Made by a program: the position numbers and the translations under genes | DNA from: Aurantiacibacter xanthus | GTDB lineage: Bacteria; Pseudomonadota; Alphaproteobacteria; Sphingomonadales; Sphingomonadaceae | Length of the DNA: 64,000 nt | NCBI RefSeq assembly: GCF_003584015.1 | Contig: NZ_QXFM01000073.1 | Span: 1-64,000, forward strand | Reading direction: 5' to 3' | Shown: positions 4,850 through 31,560 of the stretch, one piece after another | Numbering within the stretch: position 1 is the stretch's first letter | Layout: every line of letters begins with the position of its first letter | Notes under the pieces: model-generated | Seen by the model: only the letters and a program-made list of their open reading frames with translations | Databases searched by the model: none | What the model was told of the DNA's origin: nothing

Positions 4850-4866
4850 GCCCAAACAACCAACCC

Positions 4867-4955
4867 CCGCTCGTCCTGAGCTTGTCGAAGGACTGCTTTC
4901 CTTAAGCGCGGGGCGGGAAGTAAAAACGATGCTTCGACAAGCTCAGCATGAGCGG
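4867..4955. repeat. Family B palindromic repeat, copy 1
   Basis: Inverted arms of about 24 bp (4867-4890 and 4932-4955) around the core CTGAGCTTGTCGAAG / CTTCGACAAGCTCAG, separated by about 41 bp. It lies between two codirectional genes and could form a large mRNA hairpin within the operon. A close copy is at 10902-10994. Confidence 0.85.
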
Positions 4956-4969
4956 AGGAGAGGTGAGTG

Positions 4970-6320: not shown

Positions 6321-6440
6321 AGAACAGGATGACATAATGCCCTTCCCCTTGGGGAAGGGTTGGGATGGGGGGGCCACGCTAGCCAACCCCCACCCCCGGC
6401 CCCTCCCCGAGGGGAGGGGAGTATGGTGGATCAGCGTAGC
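6321..6440. repeat. Family A repeat, copy 2
   Basis: CCCTTCCCC TT GGGGAAGGG (about 6340-6359) and CCCCTCCCC GA GGGGAGGGG (about 6401-6420) surround a G-rich/C-rich spacer. Flanks AGGATGACATA and GGTGGATCAG match those of the copy at 31427-31560. It lies between convergent genes. Confidence 0.8.
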
Positions 6441-9667: not shown

Positions 9668-10877
9668 CCGCCGCCGGCTCCACCCGCTGGCGCACCAGCA
9701 GCGCGCGGCTCACCAGCAGCGCCACCAGCACACAGACCAGTGCCGGGATCGCGGCTACGCCGAGGAAGGTCTGGGCGGGCACCTTGGCGGCGATCATCGC
9801 GCCGCCCAGCGGCGGCCCGGCAAAGGCCCCGAGCCGCGCCACCAGCACGCCCATGCCCACCGCGCTTGACAGCAGGCGGGCGGGGAACAGGTAGGCGCAC
9901 AGGCCCGGCAGCACCATGCCGCCGGCATTGGCCCCGCCCACGCCCACCATCAGCAACAGCGTCCAGCGGGTCTGGTCGGGCGCGGTCAGCGCGATCATGG
10001 CAAAGCTTGCGGCCATGGAGCCGAACAACAGCGCCAGCGTCAGCCCCTTGTGCCAGCGGTCGAGCAGCAGGCTCGCGCCGATGCCGATGCCGAGGCCCGC
10101 CAGATTGGCCACGCCCGCCACCCGCGCCGCATCGTCGAGGCTGAGGCCAGCGCCCGGCAGCACGGTCGGCAGCCACGAGTTGAGCAGATAGAGGTTGAGC
10201 GCGTTGAACGCGAGCATCGCGGCGAACACCGCGAAGGGGAACAGCCACGGCGCGCTGAACAGCACCAGCTGTGGCAGCTTCGCCTTGGGCGCGGCGGCGT
10301 CAGCGGGTTCGCGCGCGGGCGCGCCGCCTTCGAGCGCGAGGAACAGCGTTCCGGCCAGCACCACGGCAAAGCCGCCGGGCACGAGGAACAGCCCCTGCCA
10401 GCCGAGCACGGCGATCAGCTCGGGCGCGAGCAGTCCGGCCAGCGCAAGGCCCACCGGGATGCCCGCCGAGACCACCGCCATCAGCGTGGCGCGCATCTTC
10501 TCGGGCGCAAGTTCGGAGGAGAGCGCGCTGACGTTGGGCAGGCAGGCCCCCAGCGCGAGGCCGGTAACGGTGCGCCAGAACAGGAAGTGTTCGATATCGC
10601 TCGAACTCGCGGTGCCGAGCGTTGCCAGCCCGGTGCCGAGGCAGCCGAGCACGATCAGCGTGCGTCTGCCGAAGCGGTCACCCAAGGGCGCGATCAGGGC
10701 GCCGCCAAGCCCCAGCCCGACCAGCAACGCGGTGAAGACCCAGCCGAAGCCGGCGGGATCGAGCCCCAGCGAGACTTCGAGGCGCGGCACGGCAAGGCTC
10801 ATGGCGGCGATGTCGAAGCCTTCCATGATGAACACGCCTGCCAGCAAGACAAGGGCGATTATACGGCGGCTGGTCAT
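9657..10877 (-). CDS. MFS transporter, aromatic acid:H+ symporter-like
   Basis: A 406-residue protein with 12 hydrophobic segments in two sets of six, the MFS loop 2-3 motif APLGDRFGRRT and a start (ALVLLAGVFIMEGFDIAAMSLAVP) carrying the GFD signature seen in aromatic-acid symporters such as PcaK/BenK. It probably imports an aromatic acid or related phenolic across the inner membrane. The ATG follows GGAGAGAATAA. It overlaps the convergent SnoaL gene by 11 bp and probably follows the 11005-11856 gene, with a family B repeat between. The substrate is inferred from family and neighbours. Confidence 0.88.
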   Translation of the reverse strand: MTSRRIIALVLLAGVFIMEGFDIAAMSLAVPRLEVSLGLDPAGFGWVFTALLVGLGLGGALIAPLGDRFGRRTLIVLGCLGTGLATLGTASSSDIEHFLFWRTVTGLALGACLPNVSALSSELAPEKMRATLMAVVSAGIPVGLALAGLLAPELIAVLGWQGLFLVPGGFAVVLAGTLFLALEGGAPAREPADAAAPKAKLPQLVLFSAPWLFPFAVFAAMLAFNALNLYLLNSWLPTVLPGAGLSLDDAARVAGVANLAGLGIGIGASLLLDRWHKGLTLALLFGSMAASFAMIALTAPDQTRWTLLLMVGVGGANAGGMVLPGLCAYLFPARLLSSAVGMGVLVARLGAFAGPPLGGAMIAAKVPAQTFLGVAAIPALVCVLVALLVSRALLVRQRVEPAAVTA

Positions 10878-10901
10878 TTATTCTCTCTCCAAACGTCCCA
10901 C

Positions 10902-10994
10902 CCGCTCATCCTGAGCTTGTCGAAGGATCGTGCTGTCTTGTTGTGTGTGAAGCTTGATGGAAAGACGGCCCTTCGACAAGCTCAGGGCGAGCGG
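10902..10994. repeat. Family B palindromic repeat, copy 2
   Basis: 25-bp arms at 10902-10926 and 10970-10994 with core CTGAGCTTGTCGAAGG / CCTTCGACAAGCTCAG. The arms are better conserved than the loop. It fills the gap between two codirectional minus-strand genes, so it would be transcribed as an intercistronic hairpin. Confidence 0.88.
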
Positions 10995-11004
10995 AAATCG
11001 GGCT

Positions 11005-12722: not shown

Positions 12723-14285
12723 ATGGCAGACATACCCCTTCCGCCCGGCTTCACCGCCATGAAGATGGATCAGGCCCGCGCCGAGCTTGAAACGCTGCTT
12801 GGTTCGTCGAAGGTCTTCTTCGAGGATCTCGACCGGATCACCTACAAGGACAAGTTCGCGGTCAACGATGCGGGCCATCACGCCTCCGGCGCGGTCGCGC
12901 CCGAGAGCGTGGAGGAAATCCAGGCCGTGCTGCGGGTGGCGAACCAGTATCGCCTGCCGGTGTTCCCGATCGCGCGCGGCAAGAACCTCGGCTATGGCGG
13001 CACCGCCCCCACGCTCGCCGGCAGCGTGGTGATGGACCTGTCGCGGATGAAGAAGATCGAGTTCGATCCCGAACTCGGCACCGTGCTGCTCGAACCGGGC
13101 GTCGGCTTTTACGACCTTTACGACTACATCCGGCAGAACAACCTGCCCTACTGGCTTTCGACCCCCGGCAACTCGTGGGGCTCGGTCATGGGCAACGCGC
13201 TCGATCGCGGCGTCGGCTACACGCCCTATGGCGAGCACACCAAGAACATCTGCGGCCTCGAAGTGGTGCTGGCCAATGGCGAGGTGGTGCGCACCGGCAT
13301 GGGCGCGTTCTCCAACGCGCCCACATGGCAGGCCTATCCGTTCGGCTTCGGCCCCGGCTGGGACCAGATGTTCGTCCAGTCGAACTTCGGGATCGTCACC
13401 AAGATGGGCATGTGGCTGATGCCCGAGCCCGAAAGCCTGATGGGCATGGATGTCGAGTTCGACAAGAAGGAAGACCTGAAGGTGATGGTTGACACCATCG
13501 CCCCGCTGCGCCGCGAACGGCTGCTGACCCAGAGCCCCTCGATCGGCAACTGGATGCGCGCCGCCGCCATACTCACCACCCGCAACGAGTGGACCGACAA
13601 GCCCGGCGCGCTCGACGACAGCGTGATCGACGCGATCCGCAAGCGCTTCAACATCGGCTGGTGGGGCGTGAGCCTGCGCCTCTATGGCCGCGAGGACGTC
13701 AACAAGGCGGCCTACAAGGTGCTGGAAGAGGCGATGGGCAACGCCGGGCCGATGTCGATCAAGCCGACCAGCTGGGTCAAGGGCCAGCCGATGGAATATA
13801 CCGGCTGGACCGGCACTCCGATGACCTTCCCGATGCAGAACGTGAACTGGTATGGCGGGCGCGGCGGACATATCGGCTTCTCGCCGATCATCGAGCAGAA
13901 CGGCGATAAGGCGCTGGCGCAGTTCCGCCGCACCTATGCCCGCTATCAGGAATATGGCGTCGACTATCAGGGCAGCTTCGCCTTTGGCGAGCGCCACCTC
14001 ACCAACGTCAATGCGATGGTGTTCAACAAGGATGACCCGGCATTCATGGCCAAGATCGACCCGTTCTTCCGCTCGCTGGTGGCTGACGCGAAGGAGCAGG
14101 GTTATGGCGAATACCGGACCCACCTCGACTACATGGACCTGGTGGCCGACACATACGACTACAATAACAACGCCTTGCTGCGCATGAACGAGACGGTGAA
14201 GAACGCGCTCGACCCCAACGGGATCATCGCGCCGGGCAAGAGCGGCATCTGGCCCAAGGGCTTTGCACAGGAGCGCGGACAATGA
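12723..14285 (+). CDS. FAD-linked oxidoreductase of the p-cresol methylhydroxylase / vanillyl-alcohol oxidase family
   Basis: A 520-residue flavoprotein with a PCMH-type FAD domain in the N-terminal half (VFPIARGKNLGYGGTAP; SVMGNALDRGVGYTPYG) and a VAO-type C-terminal cap ending DPNGIIAPGKSGIWP, a hallmark of the family. These enzymes oxidise para-alkyl phenols through a quinone methide, giving hydroxylated or unsaturated side chains. The next gene is a cytochrome c overlapping by 4 bp, so electrons probably pass to cytochrome rather than O2, as in p-cresol methylhydroxylase, eugenol hydroxylase and pinoresinol hydroxylase. No signal peptide is seen; it may cross to the periplasm with a partner. 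The covalent flavin residue could not be assigned by eye. Confidence 0.92.
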   Translation: MADIPLPPGFTAMKMDQARAELETLLGSSKVFFEDLDRITYKDKFAVNDAGHHASGAVAPESVEEIQAVLRVANQYRLPVFPIARGKNLGYGGTAPTLAGSVVMDLSRMKKIEFDPELGTVLLEPGVGFYDLYDYIRQNNLPYWLSTPGNSWGSVMGNALDRGVGYTPYGEHTKNICGLEVVLANGEVVRTGMGAFSNAPTWQAYPFGFGPGWDQMFVQSNFGIVTKMGMWLMPEPESLMGMDVEFDKKEDLKVMVDTIAPLRRERLLTQSPSIGNWMRAAAILTTRNEWTDKPGALDDSVIDAIRKRFNIGWWGVSLRLYGREDVNKAAYKVLEEAMGNAGPMSIKPTSWVKGQPMEYTGWTGTPMTFPMQNVNWYGGRGGHIGFSPIIEQNGDKALAQFRRTYARYQEYGVDYQGSFAFGERHLTNVNAMVFNKDDPAFMAKIDPFFRSLVADAKEQGYGEYRTHLDYMDLVADTYDYNNNALLRMNETVKNALDPNGIIAPGKSGIWPKGFAQERGQ

Positions 14286-14734
14286 TCAGGCAGCCCGGAA
14301 AGACAACGCTGGCGATCACGCTGGCTGGTGCGCTGGCAGTGGCCGGATGCGTGGGTATGGCAGCGGCGCAGGAGCGTAGCGAGACGGCCGCGGCCATCGA
14401 CAGCGCCCCCGCGCAACCTGCCCCTCCGCCCGGAATGCCGCAGCCGATCACGCTGGCGGACCGCCCCGGTGCGACCGGCGGCGAGGCGCTCTATGTCGAC
14501 AAGTGCATCATGTGTCATGGCCCGGTGGGCATGGGTACGGGGCTGCTCGAACGCCGGGGCCGCTCGCATGCCGAGCTGGAGAAGCGCGGCGACCTCGCCG
14601 CCGCTTTCGTGGTGCTGGCCGCACGCAACGGCATCGGCAACATGCCCGCGATCCCGCGCGGCGAAGTCTCGGACGAACAGTTGCAGGAAATCGCCGACTA
14701 TCTCGCGGCGGGCCCGCATGGGGGTGACCGGTGA
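14282..14734 (+). CDS. Small c-type cytochrome, partner of the flavoprotein
   Basis: A 150-residue exported cytochrome. Its N-terminus (AITLAGALAVAGC) may be a lipoprotein signal with Cys23, followed by a Pro-rich linker. The haem site is C75-I-M-C78-H79, and a later Met in GNMPAIP is the probable sixth ligand. It starts in the ATGA overlapping the flavoprotein stop and its own stop overlaps the next gene (GTGA), so the three proteins are made together. It probably takes electrons from the flavoprotein as PchC does from PchF. It is somewhat longer than typical PchC because of the linker. Confidence 0.9.
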   Translation: MIRQPGKTTLAITLAGALAVAGCVGMAAAQERSETAAAIDSAPAQPAPPPGMPQPITLADRPGATGGEALYVDKCIMCHGPVGMGTGLLERRGRSHAELEKRGDLAAAFVVLAARNGIGNMPAIPRGEVSDEQLQEIADYLAAGPHGGDR

Positions 14735-15102
14735 AGCTGACCCGTCGCTCGTTCGTCGCTGCGGCTGCCGTCGCGCTGCCCACTGCCGCTTCCGCCGCCG
14801 AGATCGGCTGGAAGGACGGGCACGAGACCGTGCTGCTGTTCGACCCCGCGCTCGCCGAGGGGCGCGCCTTTGCCGATGCCGGTTCGGCCTGGAACCGCGC
14901 GGTGATCGCCATCGAGGGCGACCGCGTGCGCTTCGGGCGTGAGCTGTTCGCGCGCCGTCCGGCCATCGTACAGGGCGTGAGCCTGCACGCCGATGCGCTG
15001 ATGCTCGAAGAGGTCGCGCGCGAGGCGGGCTACGAACGCGTCTCGCTTGCCCGCGAGGGGCAGGCGATGAAGTGGGTGCTGATGCCGCAGCTGCGCCGCT
15101 AA
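14731..15102 (+). CDS. Tat-exported small protein of unknown function, third member of the flavocytochrome unit
   Basis: A 123-residue protein starting GTG at 14731 inside the GTGA overlap with the cytochrome stop. The N-terminus KLTRRSFVAAAAVALPTAASA is a clear twin-arginine signal peptide with an ASA cleavage region. The mature part (about 100 residues) has no motif that can be named; it ends FARRPAIVQGVSLHADALMLEEVAREAGYERVSL. Tat export implies folding in the cytoplasm or co-export with a folded partner. Translational coupling argues that it is needed by the flavocytochrome, for example as a subunit or chaperone; this is inference. Confidence 0.72.
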   Translation: MKLTRRSFVAAAAVALPTAASAAEIGWKDGHETVLLFDPALAEGRAFADAGSAWNRAVIAIEGDRVRFGRELFARRPAIVQGVSLHADALMLEEVAREAGYERVSLAREGQAMKWVLMPQLRR

Positions 15103-15119
15103 GTTACCCGCTCGCTTTC

Positions 15120-15253
15120 ATCCGTTCGTCCTGAGGAGGGCACGAAGCCGCAGGCTGAGCGCCCGTCTCGAAGGACGGGATTCGCGCCCTGCGGCTGTGG
15201 TTCGAGACGGGGACTCGGTCTTCGACCTCGCCCCCTCCTCACCACGAACGGAT
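15120..15253. repeat. Composite nested palindromic repeat
   Basis: Outer arms ATCCGTTCGT (15120-15129) and ACGAACGGAT (15244-15253), middle arms CTGAGGAGGG / CCCTCCTCA, and an inner pair CCCGTCTCGAA (15162-15172) / TTCGAGACGGG (15201-15211) make a nested stem-loop of about 134 bp between convergent genes. It shares CGTTCGT and CCTGAGG-type cores with the other short repeats. It may act as a bidirectional terminator-like structure. Confidence 0.75.
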
Positions 15254-15273
15254 TACCGGAAATTGCCTCCAGT

Positions 15274-16836
15274 CTACGGCATCGCGCAGGAGAAGCTCGC
15301 GGCGACATTCGGGTCGCCCGTGCCGTCATACTTCGCCACCCACGGCCAGGCGCAGAGCGGGCGCTGCATCGGCTCGCGCGGCGGGGCCGGGGGCTGTCCG
15401 GGGAAGGTGGGCGCTACCGTCGGGCGGTTGGCGAGAATGCGGTTGGGGGCCTCGCCGCCATTGGCCCATGCGTCGATAATGCCGAGGGTGTCGATCTCGC
15501 TCGGGCCGGAACCGCCCGAGCAGTGGTCCATCCCCGGCGCCATGAATAGCCTGAGCTGGCTGTCGCGCTGGGCGGCGGGCAGACTGTTGAACAGGCCATA
15601 GTGGAAGGCCAGCGTGTTGGTCGCCGGGATCAGCCCGTCGGACCAGCCGTGCGAAAGCAGCAGCTTGCCGCCGCGCTGGAAGAAGGCGCCAAGGCCGTCG
15701 CTTGGCACGTTGAGAATGTCGTTGCCGTAGGCGTAGCCATCGCGTTCATAGGTGCGGTAGTCGGTTGATTTCCAATCCCAATCGGACTTTCCGCCATAGA
15801 CGAGATCGCGGAAGTAGCTCATCGCGACGGGGAAGGGCTCCTCGCCCATCACCAGCATCGCCATCTGCATTTCCGAGCCATAGGGCCAGCCGGGCAGCAG
15901 CAGGCTGCCGTCATTGGCGCGGGTGCCGCTGAACAGGTTGCTCACCGCGTGATACTGGCCCGTTGATAGACAGCCGCCCTCCTGCCCCGCGCGGCATTGC
16001 AGCTTCGCAAGGTCGGGCCGGCATTGCAGCGGCGAGGACACGATCCCGTCGGTCACGCCGTCGATCCCGTCGCAGGCGCGCAGCACTTCCGAGTGGACCA
16101 GCCCAAGCACATCGGGCGTAAGCTCCACGCCGAAGCGCACCGGCTGGAAGCCCTGCCACATGCTCTGCGTCATCAGATCGGTCATCGGGTTGGCCGGGGC
16201 CATGGCGCTGATCGCGTCGAAATCCTCGGGATAGCGGTAGGCCGCCATCAGCCCCTGCCGACCGCCGGTGGAGCACGAGTTCCAGTAGGACTTGCGCGGG
16301 GCGCTGCCATAGAGCGCGGCCACGATGCGCTTGGCCGCCTCGGTCGTGACGTGCACCGCGCGATAGCCGAAATCGACCAGCTTCTCCGGGTGGCCCACGG
16401 CCCAGCGTGCGTCCATCCCGCTGCCGACATGGCCGGTGTCGGTGGCGGCGGTGGCGTAGCCGCGGGCCAGCGCGCGGCCCATCTCGGCATAGGAGATCGA
16501 GCCCGCCCAGATGCCGTTGCCGATGCCGACATATTTGCCGTTCCAGCCCGACAGCGGCAGCCAGACCTCGCTCCTGATGTCCGAATCGCTGCTCGGCGTG
16601 AGCGTCATCTCCACCCGGCAGAAGGCGGGCACATCGGCAAAGGGGCTGGCGGCGACACCCGGCGGCGGGCCCATGCCGTTGGCGGGGGGAGTGAAGGCGC
16701 CCTTGGCCACCTCGGTCGCGGCGGTCACTTCGCCCGCGCCCAGATCGAGCCCGACAAGATCGCCGCAGGCCGCATGCGCAGGCGCGGCAAAGGCAAAGGT
16801 CGCGCTGGCAAGCGCCAGCATGGTCTTGGTGTGCAT
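15274..16836 (-). CDS. Tannase / feruloyl esterase family protein
   Basis: A 520-residue secreted esterase. The signal peptide (TMLALASATFAFAAPAHA) ends before Ala23-Cys24. The tannase/feruloyl esterase nucleophile elbow is C188-S189-T190-G191-G192 (NSCSTGGRQG), followed by the Asp region (SHGWSDGLIPATNT) and the His region (GMDHCSGGSG); the paired Cys beside Ser and His are the family disulfide. It likely hydrolyses phenolic esters such as ferulates or gallates outside the inner membrane, feeding the pathway. The ATG at 16836 was chosen for the signal peptide; a much longer frame upstream runs antisense to another gene. Divergent from the NmrA gene across palindrome site 4. Confidence 0.9.
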   Translation of the reverse strand: MHTKTMLALASATFAFAAPAHAACGDLVGLDLGAGEVTAATEVAKGAFTPPANGMGPPPGVAASPFADVPAFCRVEMTLTPSSDSDIRSEVWLPLSGWNGKYVGIGNGIWAGSISYAEMGRALARGYATAATDTGHVGSGMDARWAVGHPEKLVDFGYRAVHVTTEAAKRIVAALYGSAPRKSYWNSCSTGGRQGLMAAYRYPEDFDAISAMAPANPMTDLMTQSMWQGFQPVRFGVELTPDVLGLVHSEVLRACDGIDGVTDGIVSSPLQCRPDLAKLQCRAGQEGGCLSTGQYHAVSNLFSGTRANDGSLLLPGWPYGSEMQMAMLVMGEEPFPVAMSYFRDLVYGGKSDWDWKSTDYRTYERDGYAYGNDILNVPSDGLGAFFQRGGKLLLSHGWSDGLIPATNTLAFHYGLFNSLPAAQRDSQLRLFMAPGMDHCSGGSGPSEIDTLGIIDAWANGGEAPNRILANRPTVAPTFPGQPPAPPREPMQRPLCAWPWVAKYDGTGDPNVAASFSCAMP

Positions 16837-16952
16837 CGTCAATCCCTCCCGTTTTGACGACCAGACTAGCGCAAGCGCGCCGCCTGAAAAGTCGCCATTT
16901 GTATCAGCCGACGCGATTCCTTCGCGGGCGCGTTCTCCTGTTGAACCAACAC

Positions 16953-16964
16953 TAACATCCGTTA
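16953..16964. promoter_or_regulatory. Palindrome TAAC-ATCC-GTTA, candidate operator (site 4)
   Basis: Four-base arms TAAC/GTTA in the divergent gap between the tannase-like gene and the NmrA-like gene, 34 bp ahead of the latter. Matches sites 1-3 in arms and spacing. Confidence 0.58.
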
Positions 16965-16992
16965 TGATCGTGTCCAACAAAGGAGAGGACAA

Positions 16993-17901
16993 TTGGGCAA
17001 GATCATCGTCTCGGGCGCGTCGGGTGGGTTCGGCCATGCGGCGGCCAGCAAGCTTCTGGACATGGGCTGCGAGGTTATCGCGCTCACCCGCTCCCCCGAT
17101 AAAGTGGCCGACCTCGCCGAACGCGGCGCGGAAGTGCGCGCGGCCGATTTCGACGATCTCGAAGGCCTGACCAGGGCGATGGCGGGCGGCGAGAAGCTGT
17201 TGCTCATCTCCACCCTGCGCGTGGGCACGCGAGTCGAACAGCACCGCAACGCGGTGAAGGCGGCCAAGGCCAACGGGGTGAAGCACATTGTCTATACCTC
17301 GATCGTCGGCGGCGGGATCAAGGATCATCCCGGCGTCGAGCAGACCGACCACTACGATACCGAGCGGCTGATCGAAGAATCCGGCCTCGCCTACACCCAC
17401 CTGCGCAACAGCCTCTACGCCGATGCCGTGGCGACCGCGATGGCGATCCCGGCGCTGGCCTCGGGCCACAAGCCCGAGAACGGCGGCGACGGCAAGGTGG
17501 CGATGGTCGCGCGCGACGACTGCGTGAACGTGGCTGTGGGCGTGCTCACGCAGGATGGCCATGCGAACAAGGCCTATGACGTGACCGGCCCCGAAGCGAT
17601 GACGATCCATCAGGCGGTCGGCATGATTGCCGAGATGGCGGGCAAGCCCATCGTGGTCGAGGATGTCGATGACGAGGGCATGTACCGGTATTTCGACTCG
17701 CTCGGCGTGACGCGCAAGGCGTCCGACATCAAGCCGGATGGACCGATTCCGTGGGCGAGCGAGGGCATGGTGACCTTCGGCCAGTCGATCCGCGAGGGGT
17801 TTATGGATGTGGTGTCCGATGTGGTCGAGAAGGTCACGGGCAGGAAGCCGCAGAGCCTCAAGTCGGTGCTGGAGGCGAACAAGGGAAGCTGGCCGCAATG
17901 A
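16993..17901 (+). CDS. NmrA-like atypical SDR, NAD(P)-binding protein
   Basis: A 302-residue protein with the GxxGxxG dinucleotide motif near the N-terminus (VSGASGGFGHAAA), TRSPDKV after beta2, and the QTDHYDTERLIEESGLAYTHLRNSLY segment typical of quinone oxidoreductase 2 (QorB)/NmrA-like proteins. It may reduce quinones or sense NADP(H). The start is TTG at 16993 behind a strong AGGAGAGG. It overlaps the PQQ dehydrogenase start by 4 bp (ATGA), so a quinone-reducing role next to a quinoprotein is plausible but unproven. Confidence 0.85.
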   Translation: MGKIIVSGASGGFGHAAASKLLDMGCEVIALTRSPDKVADLAERGAEVRAADFDDLEGLTRAMAGGEKLLLISTLRVGTRVEQHRNAVKAAKANGVKHIVYTSIVGGGIKDHPGVEQTDHYDTERLIEESGLAYTHLRNSLYADAVATAMAIPALASGHKPENGGDGKVAMVARDDCVNVAVGVLTQDGHANKAYDVTGPEAMTIHQAVGMIAEMAGKPIVVEDVDDEGMYRYFDSLGVTRKASDIKPDGPIPWASEGMVTFGQSIREGFMDVVSDVVEKVTGRKPQSLKSVLEANKGSWPQ

Positions 17902-20249
17902 TCGGGCTGCTCAAGGCCCTAATCTCCCCTCCCGCTCGCGGGAGGGGCAGTGAGACTTGGCGAACCGCAGGTGAGCCTAGTCGCAGCGGGGTGGGCCTCG
18001 GACGGTTCATTCAGCGTCGCAAGCCCACCCCCAACCCCTCCCGCCAGCGGGAGGGGAGTTTTGTGGCGCTATTCGCCGCCGCCCTCGCGCTCGCCGCCTG
18101 TTCCGACAGCGCGCCTGAGGTCGACACCTCGGTCTACGGCGCGGGCGACAACTGGGACAACCCCGGCGGCGACTGGGCCTCAAGCCACTTCTCGCGCCTC
18201 GGCGACATTACCCCGCAAAACGTCGGCGAACTGGGCCTCGCGTGGGAATATGACCTCGGCACCAAGCGCGTGCAGGAATCGACCCCCGTGGTGATCGACG
18301 GGGTCATGTATGCCTCGGGCAACCTTGGCCGCGTCTATGCGCTCGATGCGGCCACCGGCGCGCAGAAGTGGACCTTCACCCCCGAGATGGACATGCAGAT
18401 CGCCCGCTCGGCCTGCTGCGACTGGGCCAACCGCGGGCTCGCCGTGGCCGATGGAAAGGTGATCACCGCCGCGCTCGACGGCAAGCTCTACGCGCTCGAC
18501 GCCGCAACCGGTGCCGTGGTCTGGAGCGCCGACACCTTCGTCGACAAGGATCGCGGCTACACCATCACCGGTGCGCCCGAAGTGGCGGGCGATCTGGTGG
18601 TGATCGGCAATGCCGGGGCCGAGTTCGACACGCGCGGCTATGTCACCGCCTACAGGATTTCCGATGGCTCCGAGGCATGGCGCTTCTGGACCATCCCGCA
18701 CGACCCCGCCGAAGGCCCGCAGGAAAGCCCCGAGCTGGAAGCCGCGCTGAAAACCTGGAGCAAGGACACCCGCTGGGACATCGGCGGCGGCGGCACCGCA
18801 TGGGATGCGATCACCTACGATCCCGAGTTCGATCAGGTCATCGTCGGCACTGGCAACGGCGGCCCCTATCCGCAGGCGATCCGCTCGCCGGGCGGGGGCG
18901 ACAACCTGTACCTGAATTCGCTCGTCGCCATCGACCGCAAGACCGGCGCGATGAAGTGGCACTTTCAGGAGACCCCGCAGGACAACTGGGATCTCACCGC
19001 CACCCAGCCGATGGTGCTGGCGCAGATGGAGGTGAACGGCGCGAGCCGTCCGGTGATCCTGCACACGCCCAAAAACGGCTTCTTCTTCGTGGTCGACCGC
19101 GAGAACGGCAAGCCGCTTGCCGCCAATGCCATCGTGCGCACCAACTGGGCCGACGGCTGGAACCTCGACACCGGCAAGCCCAATATGCGGATGGATCTGG
19201 CCGACTACACCGAGGGCCCGAAAGTGGTGTTTCCCGGCTCCCCGGGCGCGCGCAACTGGTATCCGGCGGCCTTCGATCCCACGCGGAACACCTATTTCGC
19301 CCACGTGCTTGATATGGGCAACCTGATGTTCCTCACCGGTGATCCGGCTGCTGTGAAGCACGAGAAGAAGTTCATGAACGCCGATGCGGCGATCATCTTC
19401 ACCCCCGATCTCGAAGCTGCCGCGCCCACGCTGCCTGCCCCGATCCGGGAGCAGGTGGAGGCGAGCGAGGCATGGCAATGGGTGAAGGACGAGCCCTTTT
19501 CCAGCGAGCTGCGCGCGATGGACCCGCTCACCGGCAAGACCAAGTGGGCGGTGCCGAGCGCGGGCTGGCAGGACCGGCAGGGCGTGCTCGCCACGGCCAG
19601 CGGTCTGGTGTTCCACGGCAGCGTCACCGGCAAGCTGACCGCGCGCGACAGCGAGACGGGCAAGGAACTGTGGAGCGTCGACACCGGCTCCTCGATCATG
19701 GCCGCGCCAATGACCTACCGGGTGAACGGCGTGCAATATGTCGCGGTGCAGACCGGCTGGGGCGGCGGCGGCTGGGGCTTTATGCCCGGCTATGCCGCGG
19801 CCTACCGCAAGGGCAATGCCAACCGTCTGCTGGTCTACAAAGTCGGCGGCGGGCCGACCCCGCAACCGGCGGATCTGCCGCCGCTCGAACCCGCACCCGA
19901 ACCGCCCGCGCAGTATCCAGATGCCACGCCCGAGATGATCGCCATGGGCAATGCGCTGTTCACCGCCAACTGCGCGATGTGCCACTCGAACCAGCCGCGC
20001 GCGCCTCTGCCCGACCTGCGGCGGATCGCGCCCAATGTGCATGCCGGGTTCGAGCAGGTGGTGCTGGGCGGGCTGTTCAAGATGAACGGCATGCCCTCGT
20101 TTGCCGACCGGCTCGACGCTTCCCAGGTGAAGGCCATCCACGCCTGGCTTATCGATACCCAAGGCAAGCTGCGCGCGCGCGAGCTGCAATTGCAGGCTGA
20201 GGGCAAACCGCTCGACAGCCGCTCGCTGACCATTCTTTCCAGTTACTGA
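17898..20249 (+). CDS. PQQ-dependent quinohaemoprotein alcohol dehydrogenase, predicted lipoprotein, signal peptide interrupted by an in-frame repeat
   Basis: A 783-residue protein: a PQQ beta-propeller with the vicinal disulfide C173-C174 (SACCDWANRG), repeated W-type motifs (ALDAATGAQKWTF; AIDRKTGAMKWHF), the DNWDLTATQP catalytic-Asp region, and a C-terminal cytochrome c with C692-A-M-C-H696. It oxidises alcohols in the periplasm and passes electrons to a cytochrome. ATG 17898 overlaps the upstream stop (ATGA). Codons 1-7 plus codons 58-68 would read MIGLLKA-LFAAALALAAC, a perfect lipoprotein signal, but 50 codons derived from a family A repeat lie between. A restart at GTG 18063, with a repeat-derived GGGAGGGGAG ribosome site, is an alternative but lacks a charged N-region. 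Followed after 10 bp by an aldehyde dehydrogenase that could use its product. Confidence 0.92.
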   Translation: MIGLLKALISPPARGRGSETWRTAGEPSRSGVGLGRFIQRRKPTPNPSRQREGSFVALFAAALALAACSDSAPEVDTSVYGAGDNWDNPGGDWASSHFSRLGDITPQNVGELGLAWEYDLGTKRVQESTPVVIDGVMYASGNLGRVYALDAATGAQKWTFTPEMDMQIARSACCDWANRGLAVADGKVITAALDGKLYALDAATGAVVWSADTFVDKDRGYTITGAPEVAGDLVVIGNAGAEFDTRGYVTAYRISDGSEAWRFWTIPHDPAEGPQESPELEAALKTWSKDTRWDIGGGGTAWDAITYDPEFDQVIVGTGNGGPYPQAIRSPGGGDNLYLNSLVAIDRKTGAMKWHFQETPQDNWDLTATQPMVLAQMEVNGASRPVILHTPKNGFFFVVDRENGKPLAANAIVRTNWADGWNLDTGKPNMRMDLADYTEGPKVVFPGSPGARNWYPAAFDPTRNTYFAHVLDMGNLMFLTGDPAAVKHEKKFMNADAAIIFTPDLEAAAPTLPAPIREQVEASEAWQWVKDEPFSSELRAMDPLTGKTKWAVPSAGWQDRQGVLATASGLVFHGSVTGKLTARDSETGKELWSVDTGSSIMAAPMTYRVNGVQYVAVQTGWGGGGWGFMPGYAAAYRKGNANRLLVYKVGGGPTPQPADLPPLEPAPEPPAQYPDATPEMIAMGNALFTANCAMCHSNQPRAPLPDLRRIAPNVHAGFEQVVLGGLFKMNGMPSFADRLDASQVKAIHAWLIDTQGKLRARELQLQAEGKPLDSRSLTILSSY
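17922..18068. repeat. Family A repeat, copy 3, inserted in frame in a coding region
   Basis: CCCCTCCCG CTCG CGGGAGGGG near 17926-17948 and CCCTCCCG CCAG CGGGAGGG near 18037-18056 mark a family A element. The triplet CTA occurs at 17919-17921 and again at 18069-18071, exactly 150 bp apart, so the gain is 50 codons with no stop and no frame change. The bounds are approximate. Confidence 0.8.
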
Positions 20250-20259
20250 GGAGACTTTC

Positions 20260-21726
20260 ATGACCCCCGCAGGCGTAACCATCCAACATCCCGATAAGCT
20301 GTTCATCGGCGGCGCATGGGTCGCTGCGACCAGCGGCGCCGAGATCGAACTGATCAACCCGTTCAGCGAAGAGGTCGTGGGCCGCGTCGCCCATGCCAGC
20401 AACGCCGATATGGACAAGGCGGTCGATGCCGCCCGCGAGGCCTTCGACCACGGCCCCTGGCCGCGCCTCTCGCCCAAGGAACGCATGGCCAAGCTGATGC
20501 AGTTCTGCGACGAGCTGGAAAAGCGCGTGCCCGAACTCGCCACGGCCTGGACCGCGCAGATCGGCGGCCTCGCCACGGCGGCAGGCCCGATGCACGGCGG
20601 CGCTGTCGCTGGCCTGCGCGGGATTGCGGCGCTGGGCGAGAGCTTCGAATGGACCAGCCAGCGCAAGGGCCAGCTGGTCGATACCGTGGTCATGGCGCGC
20701 GAGCCGGTCGGCGTGGTCGCCGCCATTGCGCCGTGGAACGGGCCGTTTGCGATCATGGCCAACAAGGTGTTCTACGCGCTGATCGCGGGCTGCACCGTGA
20801 TCATGAAGCCATCGCCCGAAACCCCGCTCGAAGCCTATATCATCGCCGAATGCGCCGAGGCCTGCGGCATGCCGGCCGGCACCGTGAACCTCGTGCCGTC
20901 CGACCGCGAGGCGGCCGATCACCTGATCCACTCGACCAAGCTCGACAAGATCACCTTCACCGGCTCCTCGGCGGCGGGCAAGCACATCGCCAGCGTGGCG
21001 GGTGGCAACATGACCCGCGCCACCTTCGAACTGGGCGGCAAGTCGGCGGCGATCATTCGCGACGACTTCCCCACCGAAGCGGTCGCGCAGATCCTCGGCA
21101 ACACCATAACCGTGATGAGCGGGCAGGTCTGCGCGATGCTTTCGCGCGCCATCGTCCCCAAGGCGCGGCACGACGAGCTGGCCGAGGCGATTGCGGGCGT
21201 GATGAAAGGCGTGAAAATCGGCGATCCGAACGATCCCGAAACCCAGCTTGGCCCTGTGGCGATGAAGCGCCAGCTCGATCGGATCGAGATGTATATCGAG
21301 GAAGGCAGGAAGACCGCCGACCTCGTGACCGGCGGCAACCGCCCCTCGCACATGAACAAGGGCTATTTCATCGAGCCGACGCTGTTCGCCAATGTCGATA
21401 ATTCCTCGCGCATCGCGCAGGAGGAGATCTTCGGCCCCGTGCTGTGCCTGATCCCGGCGGAGGACGAGGAGGACATGATCCGCATCGCCAACGACAGCGA
21501 ATATGGCCTCAACGGCTCGGTCTTCACCAACGACGCGCAGGCCGCCTACGACATTGCGCGGCAGGTCCGCACCGGGGTGGTGGGCCAGAACGGCATGCGG
21601 ATGGAGTGGACCGCGCCGTTCGGCGGGTTCAAGTCCTCGGGCATTGGCCGCGAGGGCGGGGAAGAGGGCCTGTGGGGCTACCTCGAAACCAAGACCATCC
21701 TCACCGACGCCAGCGTAACGGTGTGA
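20260..21726 (+). CDS. Aldehyde dehydrogenase (ALDH superfamily), 1
   Basis: A 488-residue NAD(P)-dependent aldehyde dehydrogenase with IAPWN (Asn160), KPSPETP, FTGSSAAGK, catalytic Glu257 (FELGGKS) and catalytic Cys291 (GQVCAML), and EEIFGPVL. It oxidises aldehydes to acids in the cytoplasm. It lies 10 bp after the PQQ dehydrogenase and is likely cotranscribed with it, so it probably continues oxidation of an alcohol-derived aldehyde, with the caveat that the PQQ enzyme is periplasmic. The ATG follows GAGGAGAC. Confidence 0.93.
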   Translation: MTPAGVTIQHPDKLFIGGAWVAATSGAEIELINPFSEEVVGRVAHASNADMDKAVDAAREAFDHGPWPRLSPKERMAKLMQFCDELEKRVPELATAWTAQIGGLATAAGPMHGGAVAGLRGIAALGESFEWTSQRKGQLVDTVVMAREPVGVVAAIAPWNGPFAIMANKVFYALIAGCTVIMKPSPETPLEAYIIAECAEACGMPAGTVNLVPSDREAADHLIHSTKLDKITFTGSSAAGKHIASVAGGNMTRATFELGGKSAAIIRDDFPTEAVAQILGNTITVMSGQVCAMLSRAIVPKARHDELAEAIAGVMKGVKIGDPNDPETQLGPVAMKRQLDRIEMYIEEGRKTADLVTGGNRPSHMNKGYFIEPTLFANVDNSSRIAQEEIFGPVLCLIPAEDEEDMIRIANDSEYGLNGSVFTNDAQAAYDIARQVRTGVVGQNGMRMEWTAPFGGFKSSGIGREGGEEGLWGYLETKTILTDASVTV

Positions 21727-21736
21727 TCCCCCAAAA

Positions 21737-21816
21737 GCCCTTCCCCTCGGGGAAGGGTCGGGATGGGGGATCGGGCGTCAAACCCGCACCCCCGGCCCCT
21801 CCCCAAGGGGAGGGGC
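21737..21816. repeat. Family A repeat, copy 4
   Basis: CCCTTCCCC TC GGGGAAGGG (about 21738-21757) and CCCCTCCCC AA GGGGAGGGG (about 21797-21816), starting about 10 bp after the aldehyde dehydrogenase stop. With the hairpin at 21838 it fills most of the 308-bp gap before infA. Confidence 0.8.
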
Positions 21817-26812: not shown

Positions 26813-26908
26813 CTCCCCTCCCCCTGGGGAGGGGCTGGGGGTGGGGGCTGGAACGTCCGCGAGGGCGGAGCACCCCCACCCAACCCTCCCCCTCAAGGGG
26901 CAGGGCTT
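26813..26908. repeat. Family A repeat, copy 5
   Basis: CCCCTCCCC CT GGGGAGGGG near 26814-26834 and a CCCTCCCC...GGGGCAGGG pair near 26884-26905; it begins at the aldehyde dehydrogenase stop codon. The remaining 140 bp to the next gene hold a tandem 9-mer and no gene. Confidence 0.8.
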
Positions 26909-30871: not shown

Positions 30872-31426
30872 ATGACCGAGACCTGCTGGCCCGATGGGGT
30901 GCCGGAAATCATGCCGGTGGCCGACCGCGCCGAGATCGAGGAACTGTTCGCCCGCTATGCCTGGGGGATCGACCTGGCCGACGAGGAACAGGCCATCGCC
31001 ACCTTCGCCGAGGATGCCGAGTTCGACCACCTGTGGCAGGGCAAGGTGCAGGGCCACGAGGCGATCCGCGCCAACCTGCGCAGCCTGTGGAACGACCGCC
31101 AGCACTGGTGGTTCGGGCGCCAGCACCTGATGAACCACTTCATCATGGACCCGAAGCCCGAAGGCGCGCGGGTGCGGTGCTTCTTCCAGATCATCCAGTG
31201 GAACGCCGACTATCGCACCAACTTCGTGTTCGGCATCGGCACGCGCGACGACCGGCTGGTGAAGCGCAATGGGCGCTGGAAGTTCTATCGCCTGCACGTC
31301 AACGCCTGGACCGAGGTCGATCAGGTGCCGTGGAAGGGCGACCTCTCCATGCGCCAGCGCCCGCCCTATCGCAGCCCGCCGGCTGACACGCGCCCGTTCG
31401 ACGAGCAGACCGGCGATCCGTTCTAG
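30872..31426 (+). CDS. SnoaL-like / NTF2-fold protein
   Basis: A 184-residue protein from ATG 30872 (CGGGAGACG ahead; ATG 30854 is possible but poorly placed). It has the SnoaL_4-type opening DRAEIEELFARYAWGIDLADEEQAIATFAEDAEFDHLWQGKVQG and a HHLMNHFI-like strand (RQHLMNHFIMDP), then WKFYRLHVNAWTEV. Divergent from the second dioxygenase. No catalytic role can be assigned. The stop codon TAG belongs to the end of a family A repeat. Confidence 0.82.
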   Translation: MTETCWPDGVPEIMPVADRAEIEELFARYAWGIDLADEEQAIATFAEDAEFDHLWQGKVQGHEAIRANLRSLWNDRQHWWFGRQHLMNHFIMDPKPEGARVRCFFQIIQWNADYRTNFVFGIGTRDDRLVKRNGRWKFYRLHVNAWTEVDQVPWKGDLSMRQRPPYRSPPADTRPFDEQTGDPF

Positions 31427-31560
31427 AGCGGGATGACATAGCATCCACTCGCAAAGCCCTTCCCCTGCGGGGAAGGGTTGGGATGAGGGCACCCAGCCAG
31501 CGTCGAGCCCCCACCCCCAGCCCCTCCCCAAGGGGAGGGGAGCAAGGTGGATCAGGGTAA
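31427..31560. repeat. Family A repeat, copy 6
   Basis: CCCTTCCCC TG CGGGGAAGGG near 31457-31477 and CCCCTCCCC AA GGGGAGGGG near 31522-31541, flanked by AGCGGGATGACATAGCAT and GGTGGATCAGGG. It is an inverted near-copy of 201-321, and in both places the adjacent gene ends in the TAG of CTAGAGCGGG. Confidence 0.82.

Follow-up and report, generated by a model that had tools for sequence, protein, structure and literature searches.

A palindromic repeat in frame within the signal-peptide region of a dehydrogenase gene of Aurantiacibacter xanthus, and comparable insertions in other secreted-protein genes

The window analyzed here is a stretch of 64,000 nucleotides from Aurantiacibacter xanthus (contig NZ_QXFM01000073.1, positions 1 to 64,000), and the element in question is a short palindromic repeat, termed family A, in the signal-peptide region of a gene for a pyrroloquinoline quinone (PQQ)-dependent alcohol dehydrogenase. 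The gene occupies 17898..20249 on the + strand and comprises 783 codons including the insert; its product has a C-terminal cytochrome c domain and matches TIGR03075 with 509.5 bits (cutoff 480.05), as well as PF01011 and PF13442. Upstream, on the same strand, the list of open reading frames (ORFs) holds an NmrA/NAD(P)-binding gene (16993..17901; Pfam PF13460, E 1e-20, and PF05368, E 1.1e-17). The two genes overlap, as the first-pass annotation had stated: the ATG of the dehydrogenase at 17898-17900 runs into the upstream stop TGA at 17899-17901. Codons 1-7 (17898..17918, MIGLLKA) read as an ancestral n-region, and codons 58-68 (18069..18101, LFAAALALAAC), which are also recognizable from the orthologues, as hydrophobic core and lipobox. 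Between them lies a stop-free insert of 150 bp, or 50 codons (17919..18068, codons 8-57), with CTA at both edges, at codon 8 and again at codon 58. This interrupted arrangement had likewise been described in the first-pass annotation, and reading of the sequence confirms it.

The element proper measures 135 bp (17924..18058, + strand), as delimited by alignment with other copies, by its occurrence in the genome and by its fold. It has the form CTCCCCTCCC...GGGAGGGGAG, with CTCCCC...GGGGAG ends. The terminal inverted repeats correspond to a 5' hairpin, CTCCCCTCCCGCTCGCGGGAGGGG, at 17924..17947 and a 3' hairpin at 18035..18058, matched with 0 mismatches on the + and - strand, respectively. A central stem is predicted between them, in which the 5' arm GGGGTGGGC (17988..17996) pairs with the 3' arm GCCCACCCC (18023..18031), and both arms recur in the aligned copies. 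The RNA of 17917-18070 folds at -97.9 kcal/mol (z -6.9), a value equaled by 0 of 200 shuffles. Short and bounded by terminal inverted repeats, family A has the traits of a miniature inverted-repeat transposable element (MITE); with its 135 bp, it has no room for a transposase gene. A scan against Rfam gave chance-level matches only. The left flank GCCCTAATC (17916..17924) and the right flank GCGCTATTC (18066..18074) may represent an imperfect target-site duplication of 9 bp. The left flank in one further carrier (L011) is GCACTATTC, which resembles the right flank; duplication was looked at in this insertion only.

In its own genome, family A matches at 12 places at E <= 1e-14, a number that includes the dehydrogenase insert and one match of only 70 nt. 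A 13th copy, on contig C45, is split in two pieces, which brings the total to about 13; shorter or weaker matches were left out of this count. A CGTCATTCCCGCG palindrome, also looked for in this genome, was not found. To judge from their ORFs and codon composition, two of the 13 copies lie in frame within signal peptides, namely the dehydrogenase insert and a copy at C54:99176-99297, which has the opposite orientation. The other 11 appear to lie outside coding parts or 5' of the apparent start, the starts being taken from ORF reading. At L002, L004 and L040, at least, the frame is open across the element, but a plausible start follows behind it. Open frames in the copies seemed, by eye, no commoner than expected for GC-rich DNA. 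In L040 (G000), L094 (G022) and L095 (G014), a copy stands 5' of the same gene, by eye that of phosphoglycerate kinase; as this placement is common to three species, it too is old.

The dehydrogenase was compared across a genus set of 40 genomes, all with some match to it. The orthologues read comprise 22 loci besides the window, one of which (L029) is cut short of the signal peptide, and an overlapping set of 29 named loci. An empty site occurs in L012 (= L063, Erythrobacter sp. UBA1916), which is 93% identical and has a signal peptide, MILRSLICGIGALALAAC, of 18 codons. Codons 1-7 and 58-68 of the window add up to the same length, so that the comparison with repeat-free orthologues suggested by the first-pass annotation gives an N-terminus of matching length. 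Signal peptides of 18 codons are also present in at least eight further orthologues (L015-L020, L022, L030). The same element occupies the same place in L010 (= L062, Erythrobacter sp. MAG clean1750, where MAG denotes a metagenome-assembled genome) and in L011 (= L086, Aurantiacibacter suaedae GH3-15). Counted from CTA, the inserts of the three carriers measure 147, 147 and 171 nt; all are stop-free multiples of 3, and since the difference of 24 nt is itself a multiple of 3, the frame is kept in all three genomes. The empty site, the two additional carriers and these insert lengths support the in-frame insertion into a lipoprotein signal peptide that had been proposed from the window alone. 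By sequence reading, all three carriers have a charged n-region (net charge +8, +8 and +10), a hydrophobic core and an LAAC lipobox, and in each of them an AAGGG stretch stands just 5' of the start.

A protein tree built from 31 mature parts groups the three carriers, with L012 as their sister, at a value of 94 in the Shimodaira-Hasegawa-like approximate likelihood ratio test (SH-aLRT). A DNA tree of the eight nearest genes does not separate the carriers from L012; consequently, the carrier clade is drawn from the protein tree. The simplest reading is a single insertion in the common ancestor of the carriers, after the split from L012, and loss of the insert in L012 is a possible alternative. 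At the corresponding position, the distant orthologue L080 (Altererythrobacter sp. MAG) carries an insert of its own, a single hairpin that is likewise in frame and adds 15 codons to the 18. The ratio of nonsynonymous to synonymous substitution rates (dN/dS) for the three pairs of carriers is 0.57, 0.68 and 1.08 in the insert and 0.09, 0.11 and 0.08 in the mature enzyme. The inserted peptide thus drifts in a nearly neutral manner while the mature enzyme is conserved. The two other frames of the insert give values scattered from 0.36 to 2.55, which shows the insert estimates to be noisy, and purifying selection on the inserted peptide is not supported.

The first-pass annotation had also proposed that the repeat supplies a ribosome-binding site before an in-frame GTG at 18063..18065 (codon 56). 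The sequence resembling such a site, GGGAGGGGAG (18049..18058, + strand), is present, but a working start is not supported: the codon is GTC in L010 and GTT in L011, which rules it out as the main start in these two. Another in-frame GTG lies within the element at 17991..17993 (codon 32). Behind its equivalent, L010 and L011 contain no in-frame ATG, GTG or TTG; whichever of these start codons is used, translation in these two must cover the second half of the element, provided that the protein is made. Judged from the sequence, translation of the whole insert is likely.

The family A copy on contig C54 of the same genome (G000) splits the signal peptide of a secreted protein that has no Pfam-A match, for which reason its working name, DUF4139, was dropped. 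The sample for this gene, referred to below as the C54 gene, consists of 38 orthologues from the genus (24 loci and 14 stretches) and 27 taken from other genera, where 74 of 149 genomes gave a match. L158 is masked (N) and not measurable, which leaves 64 orthologues. The upstream stop and the mature part are more than 110 nt apart in 14 of them and 55-95 nt apart in the others; the 110-nt limit was fixed after the data had been seen, and the discovery case L129 is counted among the 14. With L166 set aside on account of an N run, 12 of 13 resolvable long inserts are open in frame from a start beside the upstream stop, 11 of these at +11/+12. Were the frame unconstrained, with a chance of 1/3 each, the probability of at least 12 out of 13 is about 2e-5, or about 2e-4 when only the 11 at +11/+12 are counted. 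No in-frame ATG, GTG or TTG is present behind the family A element in L159, nor behind the old start in L160, within or after the insert. Consequently, the whole insert is read in both, if the gene is expressed from one of these three codons.

The long inserts of the C54 gene comprise at least five kinds of repeat. Family A accounts for L129, L159 and L166, and a CGTCATTGCGAG...CAATGACG repeat for L130, L133, L152 and L242, to which L237 and, out of frame, L238 are added by eye. A TCCTCCCC...GGGGAGGA repeat is found in L131 and L161, a CGTCATTCCCG...CGGGAATGACG repeat in L162, and a hairpin repeat, CCCCTCCCC, in L144. Copies of the insert exist elsewhere for L129, L130, L131, L144, L152, L159, L161, L162 and L166, and L133 matches L242; no kind is assigned to the L160 insert. 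The CGTCATTCCCG...CGGGAATGACG palindrome of genome G007 may resemble the Neisseria-type dRS3 repeats (ATTCCC..GGGAAT). As a side observation, L130, L133, L152, L162, L237 and L242 represent two repeat kinds with CGTCATT...AATGACG-like ends, and the L144 insert matches a hairpin family that also occurs in the window (CCCCTCCCCTTGGGGAGGGG). Mapped on a tree of 37 rows from the genus, of which 13 are fragments, the insert requires nine changes, at least four of which are forced by starred branches, and the insert label is not more clustered than shuffled labels. In their C54 gene, the three genomes with the dehydrogenase insert have three different repeats, and therefore these gains are independent.

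A third gene emerged from copies of the L162 repeat in G007. Nine other places of this repeat in that genome were examined; one corresponds to a signal peptide and one to glycyl-tRNA synthetase beta. The former copy (L276) stands at the start of a gene for a PF01497 periplasmic binding protein, which overlaps the preceding gene; vitamin B12 as the ligand of this protein is a guess. Among 38 genomes with a match, 30 genus orthologues were read. In nine of these, including the gene of discovery (L292), the signal-peptide region contains a repeat that matches G007 repeat copies (best E 7e-14 to 6.5e-8), and the signal-peptide regions of the other 21 gave 0 matches to these copies. In the nine genes, a WIPAFAGM-like stretch of the repeat replaces the hydrophobic core and leads directly into the lipobox (e.g. 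WIPACAGMTVSGC). These stretches are less hydrophobic, with a best 10-residue mean of 1.3-2.1 as against 1.9-3.2 in the others, and the repeat-coded segment would serve as the export signal. Eight changes are required on the PF01497 tree, four of them forced by starred branches, and one old gain with later losses is possible for part of the cases.

The reading preferred here, with a probability of roughly 0.78, is that a MITE-like palindrome was inserted in frame into the signal peptide of the dehydrogenase, is read through from the old start and is removed with the signal. The palindrome would have entered between n-region and hydrophobic core, with the element beginning 26 nt after the start codon. 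The ribosome would begin at the old start and read across the repeat, and the n-region of the resulting signal peptide would extend to about 55 residues, with a net charge of +8. Signal and repeat-coded peptide would then be cut off together at the lipobox cysteine, leaving the mature enzyme unchanged. Its tolerance would be due to position: the site follows the initiation region, precedes the hydrophobic core and belongs to the part that is discarded. The same logic may extend to the recurrence of unrelated repeats at this place in the C54 protein and to a repeat coming to form the hydrophobic stretch of the PF01497 signal. All three genes start beside the stop of the preceding gene or overlap it. 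With element starts set by eye, 15-31 nt separate the start codon, counted from its first base, from the beginning of the insert in 16 of 16 in-frame rows. The edge of the initiating ribosome lies near the lower limit of this range; it would explain that limit, as the hydrophobic core would explain the upper one. A broader and more tentative proposal, which may well prove wrong, is that signal-peptide regions of tightly packed operon genes are a recurrent harbor for mobile palindromes in Erythrobacteraceae, and that some of these, with a basic stretch and a WIPAFAGMT-like hydrophobic segment, have been recruited more than once as ready-made signals, for example in the PF01497 lipoprotein.

The mature parts of the proteins were inspected for comparison. 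Among 31 dehydrogenase orthologues, no insertion of at least 8 columns in a minority of rows was found there, and 24 C54 orthologues showed a few insertions of 6-14 residues, none repeat-like by eye. Several observations weigh against the preferred reading or its extension. The GTG at 17991 is kept in all three carriers and is a possible alternative start, so that coding is certain for the second half of the repeat only. At 20-45 changes in GC-rich DNA, 45-68% of simulated inserts stay open by chance, and the frame evidence in the dehydrogenase gene is therefore supportive, not conclusive alone. In the C54 gene of L238 (G056:C135), the repeat is out of frame behind the old start, and a new start is coupled via TAATG. 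By inspection, 0 of 60 PQQ-dehydrogenase paralogues have a recognizable repeat in the signal peptide; these were the first 60 suitable rows of the dehydrogenase search in the genus set, picked before inspection, and L206 and L219, with SPARGEG just 5' of the apparent start, were excluded from the count. The idea that signal peptides are generally full of repeats is accordingly not supported. None of seven own-genome copies of the CGTCATTGCGAG repeat was recognized in a signal peptide. The gene for glycyl-tRNA synthetase beta of G007 (L283, G007:C1:1940702, ORF 2-1885, PF02092) contains two different in-frame repeats in mid-gene, AHVELVEAS..SPSTGSGRAE (recognized by eye) and LVTPAQAGVQLDSRLRGNDEV, which rules out that in-frame copies are confined to signal peptides. 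From the results on the paralogues, the CGTCATTGCGAG repeat and the synthetase, it follows that the base rate is low and that the C54 and PF01497 genes are special. Finally, start-region accessibility in the in-frame rows is 0.28-0.54 in a control-free calculation, which lends no support to RNA accessibility of the start as the constraint behind the ribosome-footprint idea.

The first alternative to be considered is that the repeat is an untranslated leader and that the start has moved, either to one of the two internal GTG codons (17991, 18063) or, in genes other than this one, to an ATG at the 3' end of the repeat. It would draw on the RBS-like GGGAGGGGAG before 18063, on the conservation of 17991, on several C54 inserts that end in ATG right before the hydrophobic core, and on L238, which re-starts after its out-of-frame repeat. 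An untranslated leader needs no frame from the old start, yet this frame is kept in 12 of 13 C54 cases and in 4 of 4 insert-bearing dehydrogenase genes. In addition, the GTC and GTT codons of the other carriers at 18063 and the lack of later in-frame starts in L159 and L160 speak against it, and the alternative is considered unlikely. Somewhat more improbable is selection of the hairpin for a regulatory role in operons of overlapping or adjoining genes, where it might, for example, slow or uncouple translation of the second gene. The position of all three genes at a preceding stop, the very stable fold and the gains on several branches of the C54 tree would fit such a role. Several unrelated sequences are involved, however, family A occurs in both orientations, and the insert label on the trees is no more clustered than shuffled labels. 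Decay of the carrier genes, with the inserts as neutral debris in pseudogenes, would agree with the nearly neutral evolution of the inserted peptide; it is given very little probability in view of the dN/dS of 0.08-0.11 in the mature dehydrogenase and the intact frame in three species. A mis-joining or assembly artefact of the window contig is very unlikely, close to negligible. Repeats do cause mis-joins, and the assembly consists of 146 contigs, but a diverged form of the same insert is present in two further assemblies, including that of a named isolate with about 8 contigs.

In-frame palindromes are themselves already known, best from Rickettsia and its relatives. Rickettsia palindromic elements (RPEs) are palindromes of 100-150 bp with terminal inverted repeats, found between genes and in frame inside conserved genes (PMC3767692, PMC2229807, PMC10969869). 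In Rickettsia japonica, different RPE groups may be close to one another in orthologues, and the encoded pieces lie in solvent-exposed parts (PMC3767692). At YPO1552 of Yersinia, an in-frame MITE (YPAL/RU-2) forms part of a predicted signal peptide, for which a putative new exported protein has been proposed; Correia/NEMIS elements of Neisseria and enterobacterial repetitive intergenic consensus (ERIC/IRU) elements, which are small and have inverted repeats, contain open frames that are fused to other ORFs (PMC2229807).

Like RPEs and the palindromic elements of Wolbachia, family A is a multi-copy palindrome (135 bp, about 13 copies, z -6.9), and as with RPEs its insertions are in frame in conserved protein genes, with empty sites elsewhere. 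The comparison made in the first-pass annotation is thus apt as an analogy; family A works like RPEs, which would not by itself make it one of them. The host differs, however, in being neither Rickettsia nor Wolbachia: among named relatives, Aurantiacibacter suaedae and Erythrobacter sp. MAGs are nearest, and the Erythrobacteraceae are free-living. The placement differs as well, since insertion here falls in signal peptides, 15-31 nt after the start, and recurs in three secreted-protein genes, whereas the available portions of the RPE accounts name solvent-exposed parts and no signal peptides. An in-frame repeat that contributes to a predicted signal peptide is shared with YPAL/RU-2; unlike that case, as far as the accessible account describes it, the present proteins are long-conserved secreted proteins with known empty sites that were repeatedly hit by unrelated repeats. 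Correia/NEMIS and ERIC/IRU are likened to family A by description alone, and the portions of their account at hand describe no concentration in signal peptides. Compared with repetitive extragenic palindromes (REPs) and bacterial interspersed mosaic elements (BIMEs), family A is longer than a REP, an extragenic palindrome of 20-40 bp, and is found inside genes. Nothing on palindromic or MITE insertions concentrated in signal peptides was found in the open-licence literature, with subscription literature mostly outside the search. On this limited basis, which is weak evidence of novelty, the concentration of such repeats in signal peptides, close to the start codon, looks new.

If the proposed reading is correct, a repeat between initiation region and hydrophobic core would be invisible to the mature protein, and selfish palindromes would be a standing source of new export signals. 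Repeats that act as signal peptides would directly exemplify how mobile DNA can become a targeting signal. Should cleaved signal peptides prove to be a preferred refuge, a simple rule would result for where coding DNA absorbs mobile DNA. Odd, long N-termini would also find an explanation, and automatic start calling may misplace such starts. The natural pairs of empty and filled sites are a resource on the length and oddness that bacterial signal peptides tolerate.

A few minor observations concern the surroundings. At L046 (G000:C133:56166) and L098 (G037:C1:455148), in two species, a secreted-protein gene (..TALAALTLITTPAAAQ) stands directly behind a hairpin repeat, and the vicinity of its start offers no in-frame ATG, GTG or TTG. 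The gene may use a rare start codon or have lost its start, and the L046 gene, lacking a nearby start codon, was not counted as a further case. Within the window, the dehydrogenase is located near genes for an FAD-binding oxidase, a c-type cytochrome, an NmrA-like protein and an aldehyde dehydrogenase (12723-21726), a neighborhood that would fit the oxidation of some alcohol. A related hairpin repeat family (CCCCTCCCCTTGGGGAGGGG..) is found at 208-251, 6340-6419, 21738-21815, 26813-26852 and 31414-31557 of the window, and CTTCGACAAGCTCAG / CTGAGCTTGTCGAAG inverted repeats lie at 4864-4958 and 10870-10995.

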